From Mesaphorura yosii (taxonomy: Eukaryota > Arthropoda > Collembola > Poduromorpha > Tullbergiidae): a stretch of DNA of 64,000 nt. This document shows, piece by piece, positions 1,213-53,200 of this stretch; position 1 is the first letter of the stretch; each line of letters begins with the position of its first letter. Below the pieces are notes generated by a model. It was given only the letters and a program-made list of their open reading frames with translations. It had not been told where the DNA came from and ran no database searches. Where the stretch lies: contig WIXG01000083.1 of assembly GCA_009869945.1 (NCBI GenBank), forward strand, positions 186,001 to 250,000. The letters run 5' to 3'. The position numbers and the translations under genes were made by a program.

Positions 1213-4200
1213 TTAAACGAGCCAATAAGTGGGCCCCGGCCCCTCCTTATAATCTGCACGCTGTAGGAGAGACTGTTCATAAGCTTCTGTTCCGGCTAAT
1301 ACTGAGGCTCCGATAAACGATGCGTGATAGCGGTAGGGCGAAACTTGAAGCTGCGAAGAAATCAACATGCAAGCATTAACTTTTAAACTTATTAAGCAAA
1401 AGAAAAGAACGAATAACCTCGTACCTTTGGCTTTAAGTGTGGAGGACATAATTTAACGAGTTCAGCTTCAAGACGTTCTGCCAATCCTGGGATCAAGGTG
1501 CATCCACCCACAAGCAAAATATTTTGAGACATCTCTTTGCGAATGTCAACCCCACAGTCCTAAGTAAAACCAGAAAATAGAGAATATTCCTGCGGCATCT
1601 CAGTTACGAGATACTTACTTGCAATGACTTGAACACGATTTTTGGAAGGCTTTCACAGTCAAGGCCGTAATAGCCTGGGTCAAAGAAACCCTCAGCCACG
1701 CCGCGAAGAATTTCTTGATTTACACCAATTAGACTGGAGAATGGTAAAATATCTCGTAAATCCATTTCCACCACAATTTCTTCAGAGTCTTGGGATCGTT
1801 TGCGTCCACCAGCACCCGGACTTATGGAAATGAAATTTTCAGAAATGTATCTGAGGACAAGGTTCTCGGCGGGAGTTGATAAGTACAGTCCATTTTCCTG
1901 CAAGGGATTTTCCTCGTGTAAACTAAAGAGTCCCTCACACTGAGCGGCCATTGAGGAAGTCATGCGTCATAGTGAAGGTATTACCTGGGGCCCAAGGCCT
2001 TGTCTCAGGCAATGCTTCAGGACGTGACCACCATACGGGGCTCTGAACCAAGAGTTGCTTATCACAAATCCTTGACTCACAGGAACAACATCACATCTTT
2101 CTCCAATGTCGCAGATGAGACCATTTTCGACAGGATACGACCAAAACGAAGCCACAGTTTGATGGCACAGTAAAACACTTCGAAACTACAAAACGCATGG
2201 AGAATATATAACAAGGGAACAAACGCAAATCCCTGAATTGAAGGGTTCTCACCTGAAGCTTATCGAACAGTAGCTCAAGAATTTTCGTTCGAGACTTATT
2301 GTCTGTTCTACGAGGAAGAGTTAAAATGAGTCTGTAATGTTCAGGTTGAACGTTCAGTTCTTTCAGAATCTTCACGATTAATCCTTCAAGCGATGCAGTA
2401 TCGATCGTGTTCTAAAAGTTGAAGATTTTGTGGAGGTTAACCATGAACGCCGGGAAACTTTTCGCTATGTTTATATTACTTACGAGACAAAGTTTTGAGG
2501 TGGCTTCAAAAGGATATCTGATTTTAGATTTCTTACGATTTTCAGGCAAGTAAACTTCATCACCATATAGTATTCGTCCTGAACCTTCGTGTTCAGAAAT
2601 GACAGCCTCAAAAAACAACGATGGCAATGTGGCTGTAATAAATCAATGACAATTCAATTTCTTGTTCTAAGTGTTTAACACAATTGGTGTAATTTACCTT
2701 GATGTGTGAGTACTCCGGCTCGAATATTCGTCGATCCCAAATCAATTGTGAGGATATCACGGAATGTGGAAGGTGATTTTGGAATAGCTGGAACAGCAAA
2801 TGATACCGAAGTACTCATTTCATGTTTCAAGCAGTTTATCCAGTGTTGAGCAGCCGAAGCACTGTCGCATTGGAAAACGAAATAGTGTCCCTTCTGTTGA
2901 AAGAAATTTTAGATTTAGTCAACTGAAATATAGAGCATATCGATCTTTTTGTCTTACCCCGTCGTCTACTCCCAGGAGTTTATTCACCAGATTCTTTCCC
3001 TGTTCACAGAAGAAAATGTTATTAAAATGCCTCAACGGTATGATAAAGAGAATCACTTGCCTTTTCGGCGCCGACGAATTCTGTCGGATCTAAAAAGTCA
3101 ACTTGTCCGCCAGTCAGACTAGTCTGCTGAATTAAATCCTTACAATCATCTTTCTGTAAATGTAACGGAATGATTGAGGATCTTTGTGTAGTACGAATCT
3201 GTAAAAAAGTGTACTGCACTTACAGAGTAGCAGGCTAGTTTCCCTCCAGCCACCACGCAATATACTTTTTTCCAAGCATTCCAGAAGGTTCCTTTCTTTC
3301 TGTTTCCGCTGAGTAGCTGCAGATTGCCTTGAACTTCCTCAGCGTGACCGTTCCCATTTTGCTGTGGTGGTTCGACAATATGATGTAAACGCTCAAGTAA
3401 TGGCGCCTGGAAAAGTATTGCACCTTTAGGTTGTATCCTTCTTCCTTAGAAAATAAAATAGATCTTGACAGCAATTTGACTATTTACCGGATCCCAATTA
3501 GAGGGAATTCTAACGTGTTTGACGATAATGTCCTCAGTGATTGATTTTGAATCCTCTACGCTTTCTAGAGTTGACAGCGTGGATGCGGAGGAGTCGCTCA
3601 TATTTCCATTACCATTCACAGTATGTTTCGACTTGTCGGAAGCACAGGGTTTCCTTTGGCGAATAGTCTCAGAACAAAATTCAGTCAAATAATCGAGTTC
3701 CTGGTCGCTGTCTGAGGAAATCTGACTCTCAGTCTCCTCGTGAATCACTTCCAATCCTAACAAGCGTGATACCATGTAGTAAGGATTTGGCTTTGATCAA
3801 CTCTGCGTTCTTTAATATTTCAAAATTACCATAATCGAATGCGTCTCTAAAGTCACCTGAAATTTCTCCCAATTCGTAGTCGGGTGAAGGAATTCTTGGT
3901 TCGTCGTCAAATTCGTCGTCTTCAATGAAACTATCGTAGAACTCGCCTTCACTCCTGTCCAGATCTACAAGATCGCTTCTGTTTTTCGGAGTTTGGGCCA
4001 AAATAAGTTTCGCTGCTTGAGGAATCAGAGAATCTACAAAATGTAGGCTTAGTTAAGAAGCTGCTTTGCCGAAACTGATTGAACGGAATCAGAAGCTGCT
4101 TACCTGCAGAGAGCACGGACGCATTTGATTTAGGCTGAGCGTAAATGCATTCATTGGATTTGGGCACGTCGTATATCGTGGAATTCTGCATATGTTCACA

Positions 4201-5797
4201 AAACAAATATTTTAATTTAAGTTCCACGTCTGTTCGACATCATTCATTCATGCTATCAAGTTACAATAATATTGTTCTTTGTCGTTAATTCTATTGAGGT
4301 TTCGCTACAGCGGAGTTGAATTTAACGCCCAAATTCGATCATTTATTATAGTATTTCGCAATTTATTTGATTGACAGTATCAAGCTTCAAACATCATGTT
4401 TGTGGCTTGTGGCTTAGTAATAAATGACACCTGCAACAGTAAATTTTTCCAGATATTTCAGAAGTAAAAAGCTCACCTGACTCGTCTTCGGCGAGGGTGG
4501 ACTGGGAGTGTTTCCATTCTCGAAAGAAGTGGATTTTTTGCTGTTTCTGTACGGAGCGGGCGTAATAAAACTTTGGTACAAATGATCTGCGGGTGAAGAG
4601 TTGCCATTTTGGTTCTTATTGAATGAGGCACTTTTTTGCAATATTTCTGAAGTCATCTCAACATCGTCCGTTTTCAGGTCTGCGGTCTCCCTGCAAGTGA
4701 AAATCCATTTTGTCAGCATCAGTATCGTGTCAAACAAAACGAGTTGCATGATTGGTATGAATGGATTCGCGGAAATGTGTCAATGCTTTGTTCACAGGCA
4801 GGCACTGCATGATTATAAGCTGCATGTCCTTGATTTCAGTGGAAAACTGCGCCGATTTTTCACAGCAAGTGATGAGAGTGAGCGAGGTAAGGTGAAATTG
4901 TTCCCTGCTTTTGATCAATTTTCAGGTCAGCCAAAGTATTTCATGTCTATCTGAAATGTTTGCAAGCTAAATTCACACCAACGTCAACCACCCTGCCTTC
5001 ATTCTCTTTCACCACAACCCCGACCGACTTAATTTATTATTTGCTTTCTCTTTTTAATGTAAGCGCATTTGCAAATAAATTACGACTCGGACTTGAGAGG
5101 TTAAAAATAATTTAATGTCATTAGTACGAATTAAGATCTGGTACTAATCTCCGTCAGAGTGAACGAACCCGAGATGCCAAATGTAAATGACTAAAACGCG
5201 TGAAAAGTAAGCGTGCAGTGCGTAGGACGAAGTTGCAGAATCTGACAAGAATGAAAACTGGCTCGAGAACACGAACAATAAAGAGAAAATCAAAATGCAG
5301 CATCTCAGGAGGTAGGCTGAGGTTTCGCTCGTGCTGTGATCAGATTACGATGAGGGCAGTAATTATAATGCTGTGAGGGAGTATAAAACATGGAAAGGAT
5401 ACAAGCAAAATATGGGAAAACATAAATGATATAAGTGACACTAAGCGATGAATACGCTTTCATCTTCGTCTTTTGCCGAGTGATAGCGAAATAGTGTGTT
5501 TTGATCTGGCTTATGACATTCTACAAAACATAACAAAATATCGTGCATCTCTGCTCTGCATCAGGCTAAATTAACAGCCATTTGCGCTTTTTCATGCCAA
5601 GTGCCAGGCAGAGATTTTGTTGCTCTGGCTGAGATGCACATGTCCAATGCCAAAACTGGTTCGCTTGCATGGCTTGAAAATAAAAACTTTGGAATTAAAA
5701 TAATTACAAGATACCTCGGCTTTCCCGCACGACCGCAGAAATCGCCAAATATAGAACATGATGTTAATTTCCCTCCATAGAAGGGGACTATATCCAT
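1213..5797 (-). CDS. PH domain-actin-like domain fusion protein
   Basis: Reconstructed as 15 exons (minus strand, 5' to 3'): 5797-5715, 4690-4477, 4185-4104, 4033-3857, 3756-3488, 3406-3224, 3153-3061, 2999-2958, 2893-2698, 2632-2484, 2411-2253, 2185-1985, 1897-1619, 1559-1425, 1350-1213. All phases match and the sum is 2400 nt (799 aa). Residues 1-310 are polar and acidic, with YDVP and YAQP tyrosine motifs near 104-117. Residues about 311-407 form a PH domain resembling that of beta-spectrin (WKKVYCVV at the start; the C-terminal helix has AAQHWINCL). Residues about 427-799 are a full-length actin fold: phosphate-1 DLGSTNIRAG, phosphate-2 CDIGERCDVVPV, adenosine motif LLVGGCTLIPG, and an actin-like C-terminus. 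The PH helix and the first actin strand share exon 2893-2698, so the fusion is genuine at DNA level. It is too divergent to assign to a named Arp class. Inferred role: a membrane- or cortex-bound actin-related protein. Exon 1 is the weakest part, since an ATG inside exon 2 is an alternative start. The acceptor at 1897 was preferred to one at 1939, which would give a 45-nt intron. Confidence 0.85.
4691..5714 (-). other. intron 1 of the PH-actin gene
   Basis: About 1 kb of non-coding sequence between the proposed first coding exon, whose donor follows an AG in phase 2, and the exon starting at 4690. No coding or RNA signal is seen. If exon 1 is wrong, this interval is 5' flank or UTR instead. 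Confidence 0.5.
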
Positions 5798-8373
5798 TTT
5801 ATTTTGAAATTAAGAATTCAAGTTGAAAGTTGAACGACATGGCACGAAATTTCGTTGGCAACATCCCTGCCGTAACATTATTTGTAAGGGAACAGATTAG
5901 ACTTATTTATTCAAATGTTGGGGTATATTATTTTTCTCCTATATTAGCTATTTTTGTTATAATATTAATTTGATTGGTTTATCCATTCGAATTTGGGGGC
6001 TAAATTTTATTTACTCATTAATTTGGCAGGGATGTTTGACATAAAATATGTTGTGTTGAGGAGATTCAGACAATTAAGAAAAGTAATCTTTCGCCCTTTG
6101 CGGTTACAAATTTTCTGCTTTTAACGCAGATGCGAGGTCTCCGGGTTGAGGTTTCCGTTCTCAACTCAGGCTTCACGTTGCAACAACACGGCACAGATTT
6201 CTGTGCGCCTGATGCAGAGAAAAAATTCAAACAGCTTCGGTATTTGACCTCGCTTTATGTGTGGTGAACTTCGAGGGAATTTATTGTTGCACAGGAATTA
6301 GGAATGCGAACATGATTATTGCCAGATGTCAGAATTTTTATGTAAGTTTAACAATTTAAACCTCCTTGGAATTTTGAACAAGAACAAGGGATTTCCAATT
6401 CATGTTCCTGCGTCACGCACACCCTGAGACTAGCAGTGAGAATGATCGACGTGCCCACTTAGCTTGTTCACTGTGGGATTCTGCATGGTTCGTTAACTTC
6501 GACCATACTTCATAATGCACATGCGATGAGTAATTCGATCTGCTTTTAGATGGGCAAGAATAAATGGAACGTGAGTGCACTTACATTATTGCCACTTGCC
6601 AGCAGTGTCAGATACTTCATTAAAAGCACGACGCAGTCAGCAACAGGTAAATTTAACTCTGCAGACGTTACATATTCACAAAGCGGAGCAGGAGGAATAT
6701 GGCGGAGTTCCTCACCAATAATTTTATTATTAATATAGAATGCTATTACCATCCCTCTGTCGTAACAGCGAAGGTGAGACTCGAAATAGGGATCGTATTT
6801 TGTACTTCCTCCTGGCCTAGGTGCTTTGTAGGCTGCAGTAATTGTGGCCTGACTCTACTCTTGTGTGCTTGACAGGCAGGGAGTTTCATTAAACTCTTCG
6901 CGCAGGTTGTGTACGAGGACGTACAAATTATCAGCATATGCAATATTAATATTTTATCATATTGTTGCCCAATTTAGCTTGCTCCCGGCTCTGTCTGTTC
7001 CCATTTACTCCTCTGCGCGAAACGGCTCACGGTTGTCTTTTGAGCCTGTTTACCGTTCAAGTGCGCATGAATCATAACACTGCAGTGCGAAATGTGTCAT
7101 ATATTCTATTTTTGCTGCGAACTATGAATGTGAGACTTCCTGAGTTAATGGCCAGGCCGGGTGCGCTCGTGATTGCATTGCCGGTGCAACAAGAGACAAT
7201 AAATAGTGACTACGATGACAAGGTTCCAACGAAGCGTCAAGGAATGCAAACGCAGCCTAAGCCCTGCTATCATGTGAAATGTTTGAAACTTTTATTTGCG
7301 ACAGAAGACAAAGGAATTGCATGTCAAATACCGGAATTTTGACAAACTCGTTTAAGTTCTCCATTGTTTATGCAGAACAGTTTCAGTTTGCTTGACCTGA
7401 CACGACATTCTCAATAAAATTGGAGGCTCAATAATATCCGCATGCTTATTATTGTTCGAGCAGATGCTCGTCGGGGGCTCCGAGGTTGAGGAACTGAACA
7501 GAAATGGTTCATGACGAGCGTGAACTATGAGAACACAAGAATTTGACAATTAATGGCTCAGGGAACTGCGAACAATCATACCATCAACTTGAATAACAGG
7601 AATTCTCTTCTTTATGCTTTATGACATGACAAGATTCAAGATCGTAAATCACAAATTATCATGATGAGATTTCGGGCTTTAGACAAAAGAATGACTTTTT
7701 AACAGGGCGAGTATTTCTCTAGAACCCCCAGTCGCCTGTTACATGCAAAGCTCGTTAACGAAATTCAAAATGAGAAGCTTTTAACCGGTGCTAGCGCAAT
7801 AGCGAATTTTGCATATTCATGGTTTCAAGGTTGGGTGAGTCTATTTGCTATTTGTTTTAGCCTCCTGCGTCGTAATTTTATGTTAAAATATGGTTTTATT
7901 ACATCCTCCCTTTAAACACTTGCGGTGGAAAAAGAGCGAATTTTGCAGATTAGATAAATTAATGTTTCATGTATAAACAGACGAGTAAAGGCATTTGGGC
8001 AATTGATATGAGCAAACTTCTTTGTATAGATTTCCGCTCCATTGTCTACTGTGAAGTCATTCCGAAAAAAAGAGCGTACGAAACGCGTATTGAGATTACA
8101 TATTGTTAGTTTTCAGGGAAAAAACCTACATCCAGGATGCGTCATCAGCGTCAGCATCGACAGTTCAGAGAGCAATCAAACCGTGGAGCAAGGTCGCACG
8201 TCGCACATCAACTGCTTCAAGTTGTAAAATCTTAAGCGTAGACGTCTCGGGCCGGAATCATGCCGTCATGCGGTCTTTGCGTTTAAAAAAATACGAGATG
8301 ATAAGATTGTGCCGACGTTTTACAATTAACGTCCGCCGTCCGCGTGCAACACGCCATACGTCGCCTTCGCGAT

Positions 8374-8428: not shown

Positions 8429-11400
8429 CTCAGCTAAAAGAACTAAAGCCGATGCTCTGAGCTTTTGGTGTCTCGCGAAGACACGTGTGACTGTGGCATG
8501 ACATACAACGATACAACAAGTGTCACAAACTTACAATTGTTGACTTGAATTTAAATGGAAATCTGACGAATTACTGCACTGATTAATAGCTAGTAGACTG
8601 ACGACAGTGGAAAGAAGGGCGGAAGTGTTTGCAGAATAGCAAACACGCATAAAATTAACATGTAAATGAAGATGACATAAGCATGAACTGCACAGACCAG
8701 AGCCGCTCACTTTAATCATAGTGCTGGCATTCAAATTAGCAATAGTAAATTACCGGAAGGCGGCTGTAAATTAAATGAACCTTTTGGGCTTAACAGTAGG
8801 CGAACAATATCGGCAGACAACAATGTATGCTTAAACGTAACACGCCATAAAACGCGCAACACATCCCGTCAGTCGTTGATCTGTCTCGTTTTGTCTTGTT
8901 CACAATGACAAGATGGCAATGCGCTACATTTTACATATGCAATTCTGTTGTTTTTTACTTACTTAATTACTGCTCTCTTCGGCTGCAGTCTCTTCTTTAT
9001 TGACTTGACTTCAAGTTTTGCAGTTTCACTTTTATTCTTGTAACTTGAGAACTCGTTTTCTTAATCAGAGTTCGCATAGAAGACCAATAAAAGCTAGATT
9101 AAATGTCTTTCTGGTTTGGTATACTTCTCACTTTCTCTGTAATGGCTTGTCAATCACTAAATGGTAACTTTGTGAAGTCGTGTGAACCGGCGGCGATTAA
9201 ATCTTTTCCAAAAATAACTTAGCAGCCAGCATTTAGCACTAATTTTGACACTTCGAATGTTCAGTACGTTGGCGCAGAATCACGTCGTTCGTTGTCTTCA
9301 GTCTCTTCCTGACCCGCAATGCAGACTCGCTCGATGCATGGCCTCGAATGACGAGTACTTGTAATTGAGTCTGTGAGCAAATGGTAACTGGATGGCTGTG
9401 CACTTTATGCAGGGGAGACGAGACAGATGTTTTCGTCTTCAGGTGTTACGTTGCAGGCAGAATTCTTATTCGTAGTGCTCTGATGCACTGACAGACTGAA
9501 TGACTGAATTGTTGTTGCACAGGAGCGAAATACAGTTACCACTTGCAGCAGAACAAAAGGGGTATGAAATAAAAATAGTGAACAGTGATCGATATTTTGT
9601 CACTACTGCACCACTGCTAACCGTACCGTCGTCAACATGACCACGCACCGCAAGAATGAGAGAGGAATTTCCGCAAACGCATTGTGAACGGCCAAATCGT
9701 GCGGATGAGATGAGAGATAACGGGAGTCTTATTTAGAAGAATTGCAATCATACGAACGAAGTGCACTGGTGGACTGGATTCCGATGTTTACTGAGATATG
9801 TGCGTTATGCTCTTTCAGTCTGAATTTTGCAGGCAATAAGTAAAGACGTTGAAAATGCTGTGATTTGAAGCACGGACTTCGTATTGGTACTGATGCCGTG
9901 TCACTTCGAGTCGCCGGATTCTGGCTGGCGGCTGGTGTTGACTTATTTCTTCGCAGGCTGCCTTTTAGATGAGGAATGAGAATTGAAGGAGGATGAACTG
10001 ACCAGAAGTAAAGTTACACGAGCCAAACACTGAAACACTCGCGGAAACACTTTTCTCACAGAGTTAAATGACTTCGTGGATGTAGGAAGAAGAGAAGAGA
10101 GAAGCTCTTGAGGACTTTTCATCCGAAACACAAAACTAACTTGATTCCTGTGCGCCGCACCGTGCTTCGTTGCGTATAAGATTGCAACAATGGCCAAACA
10201 ACAATAAACTTGACTCCTAATCTCAACAAGATTCAAGACGGCAATAAAGCGTATGAACTCTGCGAAACAGCAGACGACATGGGCAGCTGGGTTCAAGTAG
10301 TTCACTCTCTCCTTTGCATATGCACCTAGGTACAGGATGAGAACCGCTTCAGTGTAATATCGACTCGGTTGAACTTCAAGCGCTAATAAATGTTACATGT
10401 TAAGATTTTGCAACAAGTGGGATTTCGTTTATAATTCCGTTCTCATTCTCGCCTCGAAACTTCATATTTCTCACACACTCGTCATTTATGAGAATGCATT
10501 AGCATTTATTCACAAACTCTTCGCATGGTCTGCAGACTCCTCTGAGCTGGTGCCTGCGTGATTGACTTAGATTTCAAGACCATGCAGCCAGAGTCGCCAA
10601 GACGAACGCGTGCAGTTTTAATGCTGATACAAGAATCAGTTAATTATTTATTTCATGCCACGAACTCAGGTTCCATCGCGGTTCTGGAAGTGAATGCAAC
10701 ATTGTTGGGAACATCAACAGGAATCACTTGATTGACGTGTTAGATGATAGATGGGCTCCATCCTCCATTGCGCGTATGAGTTACACCATGAAAGAGTGGG
10801 CATATTGTCCACAAGAGAATAGAAGTATGAAGTATTCTGTCTAGACTGGGTCAATGGAAATTACATGCGAGCACTGCCGGCATGGTATAAAATACACGCG
10901 AAGGGTCCTCAAAACAGTTGTATCATCATGGAGGATCCAATTGCGCACTAGCGTCAACGCGCATACGTACGATTGTGGTCAGAGTCCTCGAGGTGTGCTC
11001 AGTTTGTGTGTTCATCGTCGACAACGAATCCTTTTAAACTCCCGTCAATCGCAATTGATTAGGGTGAATGTTTTAAAACAATCACTAGCTTAAGTCAATT
11101 ATAATTAGCTGTTAATCGTTCAGTACCTGGTACTGATTAGGACATTCAGTGCTGATGTAGCAAGAGTCATGTGTTCACGTGGTTTAATCCTAATTGCTCC
11201 TAATCGGTTTCGAGTACGAAAGAACAGCACTTATTTTTGGTAGACACACATTGACATAATTTAGTGTCACTAAATCCTACTACATCCTATCCTTCTTAAG
11301 ACTACATTAATATCTGTGTCCAATAGATAAATTTTAAATGAATGAATTAAATTTTAATTAAGAAATGACCGAGGTCTTTGTTCATGGTGAATTGTTGATA

Positions 11401-11832: not shown

Positions 11833-15189
<3,357 letters not shown>

Positions 15190-16573: not shown

Positions 16574-18001
16574 TCAGACATTGACTGGATCCTCAATCAA
16601 CTTGGAGTGTACGCCCCACAAATCCTAAACACAGGAAGCGGAAATTAGTAACGTGCCAATTGTTAACCTTAAAACTAATACACGCAATGAAAGACTTTGC
16701 AAATCGAATCAAATGGAACATGCGTCATTTGCATGCTTAACAAAATTAATATTAAATTAAATAGGTTCAGTTAGTGCGTGCGCAAGAAGACAGATCGTGT
16801 TGGTTAACATACACCGAAGCTGACTGGAAATCACACACAATAACTTTACTGACCAGGCCATCACTAATGCTGGAAGTTATTTAATCTGGCCGGTCATTTC
16901 GTTGATTTCAGCCCCAGCCACCCCAGTTTCATTGTCATCCTCAATTAGCTTACAATGAATTGAATACAATTCCTACGGTACATTCATCATACGCCGATTC
17001 AATCTTCAATTACAAATAATTACTGTAAAAGGCGGTACTATAAGCATTGCGAATAATGAGAGTATTGCATGCTATCTTGTGGTTACCTTTACCTTAAAGT
17101 ATTTGACAGTCTTAACTTTCAACTCCAGCGTAGCGTCTTCGTCACAAAGCATGATTGTGTGCGGGTGCTGCTGAAACGCTGACACTGTCCACATGTGATT
17201 GACGCCTTCCTCGATGGCTTTGTAGAGAGCGAGTGCCTTGTGAGCTCCGGTAATCAGCACCATCACCTCGCGAGCATCCATCACAGTTCCTACTCCGACC
17301 GTCAAGGCCTGCTTCGGCACTTTGTCCATGTTATTGTCAAAGAATCTGGCGTTGGCAAGAATCGTGTCATGTGCCAATGTTTTGACACGGGTGCGTGAAA
17401 CTAGCGAAGACCCTGGCTCATTAAAGGCAATGTGCCCATCAGGTCCAATCCCACCGACGAAAAGCTCGATTCCACCGGCGGCGGTTATCTCAGCCTCGAA
17501 CTGATCACACTCCTTTTGCAAGTCAGATGCATTTCCGTTCAAAATGTGAACGTTCTCCGGCTGAATGTCAACGTGTTTGAAGAAGTTGAACCACATGTAA
17601 TGGTGATAGCTTTCCGGGTGATCTTGTGGCAGGCCTAAGGATCATGAAGAGAGCATGATGGCACACGATCTTACAACCAAAGTGACTGATGTGACTTTAC
17701 CAACGTATTCGTCCATGTTGAAGGTTTTGACATATTTGAAAGACACTTTCCCAGCCTTGTGCAATATGATTAGCTGCTTATACATTCCCAGCGGAGTTCC
17801 ACCTTGTACAAATCAAAATTAAAGTTCTGTCTCAAACGTCACAACAATTTCTCATATACTGAGTCTGTGCTACGTACCTGTGGGCAGTCCAAGAGTGAAA
17901 TATCTGTCGGGGCCCGGCTTGTAATCACGGATTCTTTTGGCGACGTACTTAGCAGCCCATTCGGCTACGTGATTAGAGTCGTTCAGAATTAACAGCCTCA
18001 T
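16574..18001 (-). CDS. GNPDA: Glucosamine-6-phosphate isomerase/deaminase
   Basis: Converts glucosamine-6-phosphate and water to fructose-6-phosphate and ammonia, in the cytosol. It links amino-sugar turnover, including chitin precursors in arthropods, to glycolysis. Four exons on the minus strand: 18001-17878, 17802-17701, 17634-17093, 16624-16574. Phases are consistent, 819 nt, 272 aa, the usual length. It starts [19 protein letters not shown] and has the phosphate loop [13 protein letters not shown]. The catalytic Asp lies in FNMDEYVGL, followed by the [11 protein letters not shown] segment. The active-site loop [18 protein letters not shown] carries the conserved Asp, His and Glu, and [13 protein letters not shown] follows. 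The last exon is only 51 nt and encodes [16 protein letters not shown]; it was placed by its in-phase acceptor and by similarity to the family C-terminus. GNPDA1 and GNPDA2 cannot be distinguished in an invertebrate. Confidence 0.96.
16625..17092 (-). other. intron 3 of glucosamine-6-phosphate isomerase
   Basis: A 468-nt phase-0 intron, longer than the other introns of this gene. Nothing recognisable inside. Confidence 0.8.
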
Positions 18002-47200: not shown

Positions 47201-50200
47201 ATGGGCGTCGGTGTCGCATTTTTGTTTTCTGTGATTTTGTTTTGTGAGAGCCACATCTTCGTAACTCGAGTCAAGTCAGTTCCTAATTTGAGGAATAGTT
47301 CCTGGAATATCGAATTACAAGCAAGCGGTCATTTTCAAGATGACCAGTTTAATCAGTACGAACTAAATCCTGATAATGAAATCCAAGTACAAAATTCGGT
47401 TGTAAGCACCTCGCCACCGCCACCACAACAGCCAAAACATCAACTCCACAGTCATCACAGGTCCGCACTCGGTCGAATTAAGAGAGAACCTCAGAGAAAG
47501 CAGAAGCAGGTCGTGCGAATCGCGGTGTTGGCACCTGCTAAGCCTGAGTACCAGTACTCGATTCAGAAAGTTCTGCCACCGACAACGATGGCCGTCAATA
47601 GCTCAAAAATTCGCAAATATCTTCCCGACTGGGACATCACCGTTGTGCATGGCGACACCGAGTGCTCATCGACCGTTGGGCCTCTGCGTGCCTTCGATTT
47701 TTACACAAATAAATCTGCTGGTAAGACACAAACGCATCTTTCGCGTGATAAACGTGACCATTCTTCTGTGCCATTCGGTGCCTGATTCTGTGCTCCTTCC
47801 ACAGATGTATTTCTGGGTCCAATGTGCGAGTACGTGATTGCTCCCGTGGCAAGATACGCCGGTCACTGGAATATTCCATTATTAACACCTGGCGCTCAAG
47901 CTGATGCATTCCGTCATAAACACCCGCATTATCCCACTCTGACGAGATTCGCGGGGTCGTACAGTCTCATCGGCGAGGCGTTCTCAGAAATTCTTGATCG
48001 CTTCGGCTGGCGGCATGTTGCACTTTTGTATCACAACTTTGCAGTCGCGTCTGGAAAAGGTCACTCATCCTGCCACTTTACTTTGGGCACTGTCTACACT
48101 GCCCTCAACAGCACACCGACGTTCCGCAGCTTTGATGAGACACGAGACCAAGTCAACTTCCATGAGACACTCACGTACATTTCCACCAAAGCAAGAAGTG
48201 AGCGGAATCCTCTCTTAATTCTGAATGCATTTTAGGATCCGTCTTGGCTAATCCCATCTTTCTTCGAAAAAGCCTCATTTCTCACTCTTTTGCAGTGCAG
48301 CACGCGATAGAAGATCTACTATTATATCTTTCACTGCTTTCAATTTTTTCCGGCTTTCTTCTTCCTGCATTTATTTATTTTTTGGCGAATTATCAAAAAG
48401 CTTCAAATACACATGTTAAATCTGATTTATTTAAAAATTACTTCTGCATGAAAAACTGAAAGTCGCTTTCTTCCTCCTTGCGTCCCACTTGCGGATGCAT
48501 TTGCAAACTTTGACTGTCATTGTAAAGTAAATCCACAGACAAGGAGAGCGTAAATTGAAAGCTAAGTGCGAGTTAACTTGGGTTGCGAGACTTCTTCAAC
48601 TATCATGCTCATAATTCCATGCAAACTTGCTCCTTATGCCGAAAATTGGCTGTCTTCTGTTTTAAGCAAGCACGTCACAGAAGTGTAAGCTAAAAATAGA
48701 GCCAGCCAGACAACATGTGGAAATGGAAATCAGAGTGAGAGGCAGTCAAATTTGAGTGGAGACTGCATCATATTTGTATGCAGAGGGAAAGTATGCATAA
48801 TTTGTGTCTCTCGCATGCACGCGCAACTGCCTGCCGTGCTCATGCCTTGCTTTCTCCAGAGGACGGTAGTCTTTGGCGAAATGGGAGCAAAAAATGTCGA
48901 ACAAGAAATTACAAGAGACAAGAGCAAAAAGTTGTGCAAGTGGCTGTGCGTACAATTGTTTGCCAGACTTTTCTTTTCGTCCCGAGCATAATCGCAAAAT
49001 GATTGCTGTAATCTACATACATTACTCACCGCTCCAGTCTTCTTTACACGCTTGTAAATCACAATCCGTGTACATAATAATATTTACAGTCTGATGCATT
49101 GCGGGCCCCGTCGACAGAATTGACTCTGTGATTTTGATGCATGGCTTCCTCGTTACAGGCATCCAGTGTCCTTGCAGCACAATTCTTCCGCTCTGATTTA
49201 TGGAGTCGAAGCCAGCATGAGAATTAGCTTACGGAATTAGAAAGCAGAAGGCAGCATAAATTATTGCGTCAGCGATGACAGGGCTAGTTAAGAAATGAAT
49301 TTATTTACTCTGGTGCGCTCCTTTCACAACTCCTCGATTCCTTCGAGTAGTGTGTTCCGAAGCAAATGAAAACAAGGTTAGTTTCGTTTAAGTAAATACA
49401 CGAAACGGATTCACGAGCACACTGCGCACATATAATGTGAGGAACAATTGCAATGTTTCTCGTTCGCGAGTCGCAGCAGTGCTGGTTGAATGCTCAAGAC
49501 ATGGATCTTTATGCAAATCTGGTCCAATCATCCATGTCATTTTACTCACAAGTACTCATTTAAATTCATTTATCACAACAGTCGTGGTTCTCTGTGCTTC
49601 ACCTCCCAAAATACGAGAGATTCTCCTGGCAGCTGAAGAATTGAAGATGGTTTCAAGTGGCGAGTACGTATTTTTCAATGTGGAACTCTTCACCAAGTAA
49701 GTTGGGTTGACAGGCGCAAGCGCTCAAAATCGCATAAAATGAATTGAATGAGCACGTCATAAAGTTTCAAATATTGTCTTTCTTGCATCATCGGCTCGAG
49801 CGCATAACACATAAATACAAGCGCAGTATGAGCAGGCCTGACGATGATGTACCAGAGACGCCAGGCGATTTTAGACACATTAGAGAGAAAGTTTGTTTGA
49901 TGCAGACAGACATTAGGCTCTTCAATTGTTTAAACTGTTCTTCAGTTTGATGGGAAAAATGGAACTCCCGAAAGGGCCTGAACGCTCTCCACTCATGTAA
50001 TTAGAGACTAATGATGTTCCTTAATTAAATAACCTCCGCCGATGTTCACCCAATTCAGTGCTCACCTCATTCGAGGGATCCGATCAAGTTGAAGAGTTTG
50101 GGATGCATTTCTCTTTCCTAATCACAGCCCGAGGAACAGTTATAAGCCGTGGTTAAGCAAGAACGACACTGAGGAGAATAACGACCGGGCCAAACGTGCG

Positions 50201-53200
50201 TACGAGGCGTTGCTGACTCTGACAGTGCGACCACCACCCAACACACCGGAGTACATGGAGTTTGACGAAAACGTGCGCAAGAAGGCCCTGGCCGAGTTCA
50301 ACTTCACATTTGGCGACGAACCCGTCAACCCCTTCGTGACGGCGTTTTATGATGCGGTGCTTCTGTACGCCATGGCCCTGAACGAGACACTACGGGATGG
50401 TGGTTCAATTTCAAATGGATCGGAAATCACTCGCCGAATGTGGGGAAAATCCTTCAAAGGTATCAAATTCCAACGTTTATTACACACACACGGGCATTAG
50501 CAGCATGGTGTATAATCATCACTTCAAAAAGAAACATGAGTGTGGTCCTGTTTAATCGCAGGCATCACCGGTAATGTTACTATCGATCACAACGGAGACC
50601 GAAATGCAGATTACTCCCTCCTGGACATGGATCCCATTACTGGCGTCTTTCACGTGAGTCGGCTCGTATTGAATTTCTAATTATGGCTCAATCTCACATC
50701 GACTGTTGCCGATCACGTACATCGTACGCGGTTCCATCAAAACATTAAAAGCGCTTCATGGTAGCCATTACCCTGAAAGCTCAAGTAATTAGCCCAGTCG
50801 TTTGAGGAAAATTTTGAAGAGCACTGATGTGAATGGCAGTGAGAGCTTGATATTGCGGAGCACTTCAGGTTTCCTAATCCAATAATAAATTAAGTTTCCC
50901 GGCTCACTTTCACCATCCAGCCGCGCAACTCTTCCGCAGTGTATCTATTCTTTCATCATGGTGTCATTAACATAAATACTTTATAAGAGGCCACAGGCTA
51001 ATGTGAATGCGAAATTTATTCTCCTCCATGCACTTGGAAAGGCTGGCGGGGATCGTCTGGAGCTTTGAGTCCTGCTTGAGAAAGTTCGGCTCGAGGATGC
51101 GAAAATAGAAGAAATGAAGCCTTATGATAATGGCCGCCTATTTACATTTGAATTTATTGTTTCTTGCTCTCACACATTCATTCCGCCATAGGTTGTGGCC
51201 CATTATTCTGGGAAAACAAAGGAAATAATTGATGAGCCCGGAACAGCAATTCACTGGGCTGGAAATCGCCAAACGTCGCCGCCTGATACGCCAATGTGTG
51301 GATTCGACGGGTCTGGCTGTCCAAGTAAGATAACAGCTTCCTCTTTCGCTCTCTTCCTCATGTACGCTCATTGTGTTCGTTTGGAATTCAGAGCAGTCCC
51401 TTGTTTAATCATAAGTTAATATGAATAGCCCTCTCAGAGGACTGCATTTATTTATAATTACCCAAAGTGACTAGTAACAGGAGCCTGGTCTATTTTAGCT
51501 CCAAAGAGAATTGGGCCGGCTTTGAGTAGCTGGACCCGAGAAGCGAGTGAGTGAATATCTCCCGTGCTGAGAAAGGATCCTGAGAGTTTTGTTGATACTG
51601 CTGCGCTCTTGAAATGCAAAATGGCAATGCGCGCGCGGAGTGAGATCATTTTTTACGTCTTGCAGCGTGGATTGAAAATAAAGCCTTCTCTGTTGTCGAT
51701 CAAGAGCAGACTTCGCTCGTAGAATATTCTTATTGAAACAATTGCTGGGATTAGAGGCAAGCTTCAAAAAGAAATGTTGAAGAAGTGGAACTCCGTCGAC
51801 TGACTGCATAAACGTGTGTATCAAACAGGCGATTGAGAACGACCGCGAGCATCGGATGAATTCCATTCCTTTCTTGGCATCAATTTTTCTATTTTCATAC
51901 CTTTTACTCTCTTTCCTTTCCAAATCCTGTCTGCGATGTGTGGTTTCTGTAACAGTCTCTCCCATTGAAGAACAGGGTTATAAAGAAAATTCCAAACCAT
52001 TTGCTCCACTTCCTTTCTCCCTCTCTGGCAGCATCAGCCCAAATGGATACTCCATTTTTGGACTCTGCACCAACTTTATGTTCTCCAAATTCCTAGTAAA
52101 CACATCGCATTCATAAAATGCTAGGAAAGAATCTATTTCGGTCACAGATATTGAGTCAGTTCCACTCCCACTCTCTGGGCTGCGTAGCGTTTTCACTGAT
52201 TCTGACGGATACAGTGCAGAAGACAGTCCACTCCGTCGTCCATGACGCGGGGTGGGACGTCGACTTGAGAGCAATCAGTCAGCACTCTGACGGATTGCAT
52301 TAGGGACAAGCGCGGATTCGGGGAATGCTGATGGATTCCGAACACTTTCTTTCATGGCGCACACCGTGCATAAGGGCCTAGCAATTCAATGAATTTATCA
52401 TAATTGCAATTTCTTGTTTGTATTCTCAGCTATGCCCCAGTACGCGATTGTCGTGATCGTCTTGAGTTCGGCGTTGGTCATCATACTTATCAGCTTCTTC
52501 TTCATCTACAGGTAAGAAGGGAGACTACTAACTCAATTCGCTCTTTTGAAACCTGAGCTGGCTAATAGCTGACGGACCTTGGGCCAAGCACGAAACGCAT
52601 TATGGAGAAACGGCAAACGGGGCTCGTGACCCGTCATGTCCCATAAATTGTCATGCTTGCGAATGTGGCTGAGAGCGTATAATTACAGTGCATTCCGTGT
52701 AAACGGTTACAAATTGAGCTTTACTGGAAGGAGACAAGTCAATAAAAGAGCGTGAGACGCCAACGAAATGGAATGAAGTTATCTTATCCTCGAGGTACGA
52801 GGTGAGTAATTGGAGTCGTGCGGCAACTTGAGTCCTGCGTCGAACACGGACGCGGCAGGGACTCATCTCGGTCCGGAGAACACAATTTATTTACGAGATC
52901 GTAATACGAGCAGTAAAAACAAAAGGGAAAAGTTTTGCAACAAGGTCTCATTCGTGAGGTGTTTTTCTTGTTCTGCGTCCATATTTTGACCATTTATTCT
53001 GCTTACTCCAATTATTTTTGTCTTTCCCGTGTCCTAATTTTTACTCGCAGGACAATAAAGTCCTGCATTAGCTTTTTATGAAGACATTCACTGGAGTTGT
53101 CCAGTTGTTTATACCTCCGCTTGCTCCCTGCCCACACTGCCTGCAACTTTTACTTTCTGTGCATAAAACTTTTGTCTGGACGTAGTGCATGATTTTTGAG

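Follow-up and report, generated by a model that had tools for sequence, protein, structure and literature searches.

Near the beginning of the window (the whole 64,000-nucleotide stretch of DNA analysed here) lies a minus-strand gene whose 14 exons, situated within 4690–1213, are joined by splice sites into a single frame of 780 residues with its stop at 1213. The first four exons of this verified chain (4690–4477, 4185–4104, 4033–3830 and 3756–3488) encode a tail, which is acidic in the first, third and fourth of them and carries the motifs YDVP and YAQP in the second. Exon 3406–3224 contains the end of the tail and the first strands of a PH domain that continues through 3153–3061 and the 42-base exon 2999–2958, while exon 2893–2698 holds the last PH strand and helix, a linker and the first phosphate loop of an actin fold. 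The rest of this fold is encoded by exons 2632–2484 (with a shortened D-loop region), 2411–2253, 2185–1985 (with the second phosphate loop, DIGERC, where actin has DSGDGV), 1897–1619, 1559–1425 (with a VGGCT loop) and the last exon with the stop codon, 1350–1213. All of these exons are backed by their splice joins and, additionally, by the codon score in the case of the first one, by alignment in the case of the D-loop, DIGERC and VGGCT exons, and by Pfam for the other exons of the two domains.

Twelve of the 13 introns are of the GT-AG type and one, following exon 3153–3061, is GC-AG; 12 of them measure 59–87 bases and one measures 291, against a median of 82 in the 64 introns of 13 other actin-family genes of the same genome (the gene C138, described below, being left out). 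With a codon measure derived from these 13 genes, the model frame scored best of the three in 13 of the 14 exons, the tail exons included, with margins that are small in some of them; the exception is the last exon (−0.21 versus −0.18).

The original prediction had proposed that a PH domain and a complete actin-like protein are fused in one product and had called for a domain search, and both domains were recognised in the 780-residue product by Pfam at scores above the cut-offs used, which were the gathering scores. The PH family (PF00169) matches residues 283–388 (E 1.1e-7, 32.7 bits against a cut-off of 25.1, positions 5–104 of 105) and the Actin family (PF00022) matches residues 410–771 (E 7.8e-45, 153.6 bits against 27, model positions 7–399 of 410), leaving a linker of 21 residues between them; when the domains were searched separately the values were 2.8e-9 and 37.9 bits for PH and 5.3e-46 and 157.5 bits for Actin. 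Against a profile built from human beta-actin and 14 actin-family genes present in this genome, the actin part scored 144 bits, while 1000 shuffled versions peaked at 2.5. Conventional actins are at the top of its matches among solved structures, with the best at 4.5e-34 (among the best 60 of the 157 matches at E 0.001 or better). With 14 exons in one frame and both domains recognised, the fusion holds as a gene model.

The junction itself stands as it had been described: exon 2893–2698 is open on the minus strand, reads KGHYFVFQCDSASAAQHWINCLKHEMSTSVSFAVPAIPKSPSTFRDILTIDLGSTNIRAGVLTHQ and runs from the end of the PH domain into the beginning of the actin fold without interruption. We nevertheless considered whether the locus could yield two products, with early-ending transcripts for the PH part and an actin-only protein started from an internal ATG, and such an ATG is indeed found in frame at 2818, between the domains. 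However, a single exon of 196 bases encodes both the last PH helix and the first actin strand, and it contains no stop codon and neither AATAAA nor ATTAAA; we therefore regard this explanation as very improbable. The one AATAAA-type word lies at 2984, in a PH exon. Fifteen GT-AG introns of at least 45 bases would be possible inside the junction exon, of which nine would break the frame; the six that keep it would trim a domain or the linker and would still give a single product.

The start of the gene as first predicted, at 5797, and the predicted length of 799 residues were not confirmed. The putative exon 5797–5715 has a donor of 6.6 bits in the right phase and is one candidate for the start, although the join gives 808 residues; the ATG at 4656, inside exon 4690–4477, is another possible start and would give 769 residues. 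The strongest donor (9.6 bits) belongs to 6752–6585, which was rejected as the first coding exon on account of its wrong phase for exon 4690 and could be an untranslated exon or a part of something else. The open frame around it, which lies a short way upstream of the gene at 6585–6855 of the window (minus strand), comprises 90 residues, and no Pfam family matched it. On the other side, a phospholipase-D-like exon (PLDc_2, 5e-14) at 3–590 of the plus strand converges on the 3′ end of the gene. Further Pfam neighbours in the window are HSP70-type exons (12405–14819, plus strand), a glucosamine-6-phosphate isomerase exon (17075–17641, minus strand) and receptor ligand-binding (ANF_receptor) exons (47786–50497, plus strand).

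The tail preceding the PH domain comprises 282 residues in the 780-residue model, has a net charge of −28 and matches nothing in Pfam. The pair of YxxP motifs involves two of its eight tyrosines; in 20,000 shuffles, two such motifs fell within 15 residues of each other in 1.3% of cases and anywhere in the tail in 10%, and since the pair was picked out after the sequence had been seen it constitutes weak evidence. The nearest natural chain to the PH part among the solved PH structures is the PH domain of beta-III-spectrin (E 0.2), which shares the Pfam PH family with it; a match of this strength does not allow a PH subfamily to be named. A designed repeat protein that came out as the top structural match (3.5e-8 and 3e-9) was counted as an artefact of summed repeats because its single stretches reach just E 3.8 to 20, and the matches to phage-tail and Csn2 proteins are weak and do not represent PH domains, the phage-tail chains, which likewise rank ahead of beta-III-spectrin, being counted as artefacts too. 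Lipid targeting, as initially proposed, may apply, but inositol lipids are bound by only a part of PH domains. Judged by eye, the canonical inositide-binding motif is presumably incomplete here. A likeness to AFAP would be conceivable.

The window belongs to an assembly of 93.0 Mb in 1127 contigs. At least 66 exon matches to cuticle proteins are found there, as well as arrays of TTAGG (40 exact, overlapping matches, against 0 for the reversed control), and both point to an arthropod; a query with 18S DNA gave no match. Spliced models were built for 14 other actin-family genes of this genome. They include four conventional actins and three divergent actin-like genes (C848, C182b and C182c), the best structural matches of C848 being actins. 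From their sequences we read C244 as Arp1, C258 as Arp2, C667 as Arp3, C63 as Arp4 and both C425 and C240 as Arp6, the latter two pairing with full support in the tree; C138 is Arp10 by its match to a solved structure (5.9e-30). The models of C240 and C138 are imperfect and contain in-frame stops (two in C240). Three consecutive actin-family genes, one of them a conventional actin and the other two the divergent C182b and C182c, are located at 9065–15648 of contig C182. Neither Arp5 nor Arp8 was seen among the actin-family matches, in a search that was not specific to them.

As the genome has its own actins and genes read as Arp1, 2, 3, 4, 6 and 10, the gene with the PH domain is an extra one, which supports the initial view of one protein, with a PH domain followed by a complete actin fold, existing beside the Arp classes that could be named in this genome and not replacing them. 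No second copy was revealed in the genome by the queries with the PH-actin part and with the tail: the former gave 25 matches, nine in the gene itself and the remaining 16 on contigs that carry other actin-family genes, and the latter gave six, five in the gene itself and one at E 0.43. No second pair of PH and actin domains was found either, the sole contig shared being C258, where the PH and actin places are about 90 kb apart, in match lists that work exon by exon and that missed the PH domain of our own gene, so that a split second pair could be missed too. A scan of viral contigs for relatives gave three pattern matches and none was confirmed.

Actin and the canonical Arps rank among the most conserved proteins. 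The actin part of our protein is identical to human beta-actin at 26.5% over 358 columns, in contrast to 361–368 of 374 residues in the four conventional actins of the genome, and it is therefore not a conventional actin. Its identity to Arp1 is 27.5%, to Arp4 24.1% and to Arp6 and Arp10 18–19%. A divergent actin fold that is additional to actins and canonical Arps is what characterises the non-canonical Arps, which are often expressed in the male germline, and the protein falls into this group. One of its six introns compared coincides in position and phase with an intron of Arp1 (against 67 introns in 14 genes), which chance could give.

In a tree of 16 sequences the branch of the protein is very long and its partner, with weak support (89/68), is Arp4; the pairing persists as an unrooted split when Arp6 and Arp10 are removed (86/81, 13 rows); both of these supports are under the mark set by the tool, and the tree contains no named reference rows for Arp5 or Arp8. 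AU tests were applied to nine other placements. A single one, with C182c, was rejected at the 0.05 level (p 0.0275); that with C848 scored 3.08 log units above the free tree. The protein thus leans weakly to Arp4, but with eight of the nine other placements not rejected, any assignment to a class would be tentative. It would be possible to suppose a relative of Arp4 that acts either out of the nucleus or in a chromatin complex, with its PH domain binding a protein and not a lipid. The Arp4 of this genome likewise lacks the residues of actin at positions 137 and 161 and keeps 7 of 22 nucleotide contacts; our protein, however, retains Q137, which is absent in Arp4, and the branches concerned are long, so that such an origin appears improbable to us. 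The same very long branch might mark a decaying gene or an oddity of one genome, i.e., a chance fusion with no lasting function; against this stand fourteen exons open in one frame with sound splice sites, and we find this account about equally hard to credit.

The residues that the actin fold has kept and lost, as counted in an alignment at about 26% identity on which these counts depend, suggest a protein that would probably not polymerise. Identity to actin is found at 11 of the 22 positions listed as nucleotide contacts of actin, versus 84 of the 336 other positions; D11, Q137 and D154 of actin are retained, and the column of the catalytic histidine, His161, is empty. In the stretch 35 to 57, which covers the D-loop region, there are 15 residues where actin has 23, with about 8 lost, and 7 of the 15 D-loop positions are filled. 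The shortening alone says little, as the corresponding stretch of C182c is even shorter (14 residues) and this gene nevertheless keeps 17 of the 22 nucleotide contacts. Nucleation, one of the two activities initially proposed, becomes less likely with a D-loop region so reduced and with the histidine gone. Capping, the other one, is possible, although only 2 of 11 cleft positions are identical to actin.

A more definite form of the capping activity would be that of a membrane-held pointed-end cap, which would join a filament of actin or Arp1 at its pointed end, accept the D-loop of the last subunit and, having no proper D-loop of its own, block further growth. The reduced D-loop region agrees with it, and a precedent is offered by Arp10/Arp11 of dynactin, which is described as terminating the Arp1 filament at its pointed end (PMC3583065, PMC8047447). 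The Arp10 of this genome also has a very divergent actin fold and a reduced D-loop, with 9 of the 15 positions filled; its identity to our protein is 18%. On the other hand, the cleft matches actin at just the two positions mentioned (three of 11 in Arp10), and a separate Arp10 gene is already there, which in our opinion makes such a cap unlikely, if less so than the Arp4 relative.

N-terminal parts attached to actin-fold proteins are already known from Arp53D and filactin, while a description of one protein that combines a PH domain with an actin fold was not found in the open-licence literature, as judged by titles and the opening lines of abstracts. Arp53D of Drosophila resembles our protein in that its actin fold is divergent and preceded by an N-terminal part absent from actin, and in being additional to the canonical Arps; its extension, however, is described as about 40 residues long and predicted to be mostly unstructured, and its identity to actin is about 60% (PMC8291977), whereas here 282 residues and a PH domain precede a fold of much lower identity. 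Filactin of Dictyostelium has a similarly long N-terminal part, but its actin domain is reported to be highly homologous to conventional actin (PMC2441452), unlike ours, which sets our protein apart from filactin. The main text of the latter paper contains no mention of PH or pleckstrin.

The explanation that we prefer, to which we give about an even chance, is that the gene encodes a non-canonical single-copy Arp of an arthropod-like animal in which the tail and the PH domain serve as an address and the actin fold as a non-polymerising binding module. The tail and the PH domain would bring the protein to a certain place, most likely to a membrane or an adhesion site. Any nucleotide held by the actin fold would be no more than a structural ligand; the fold would build no filaments of its own and might instead bind actin or an Arp partner. 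A more far-reaching version, in which the gene would represent a conserved but unnamed arthropod class, "PH-Arp", whose PH domain puts a non-extending actin fold at membranes where it ends or seeds filaments, is in our view possible but rather doubtful.

An Arp possessing its own domain of a membrane-docking type would connect lipid signals physically and directly to a protein with an actin fold. The protein would then represent another case of the reuse of the actin fold in animals.
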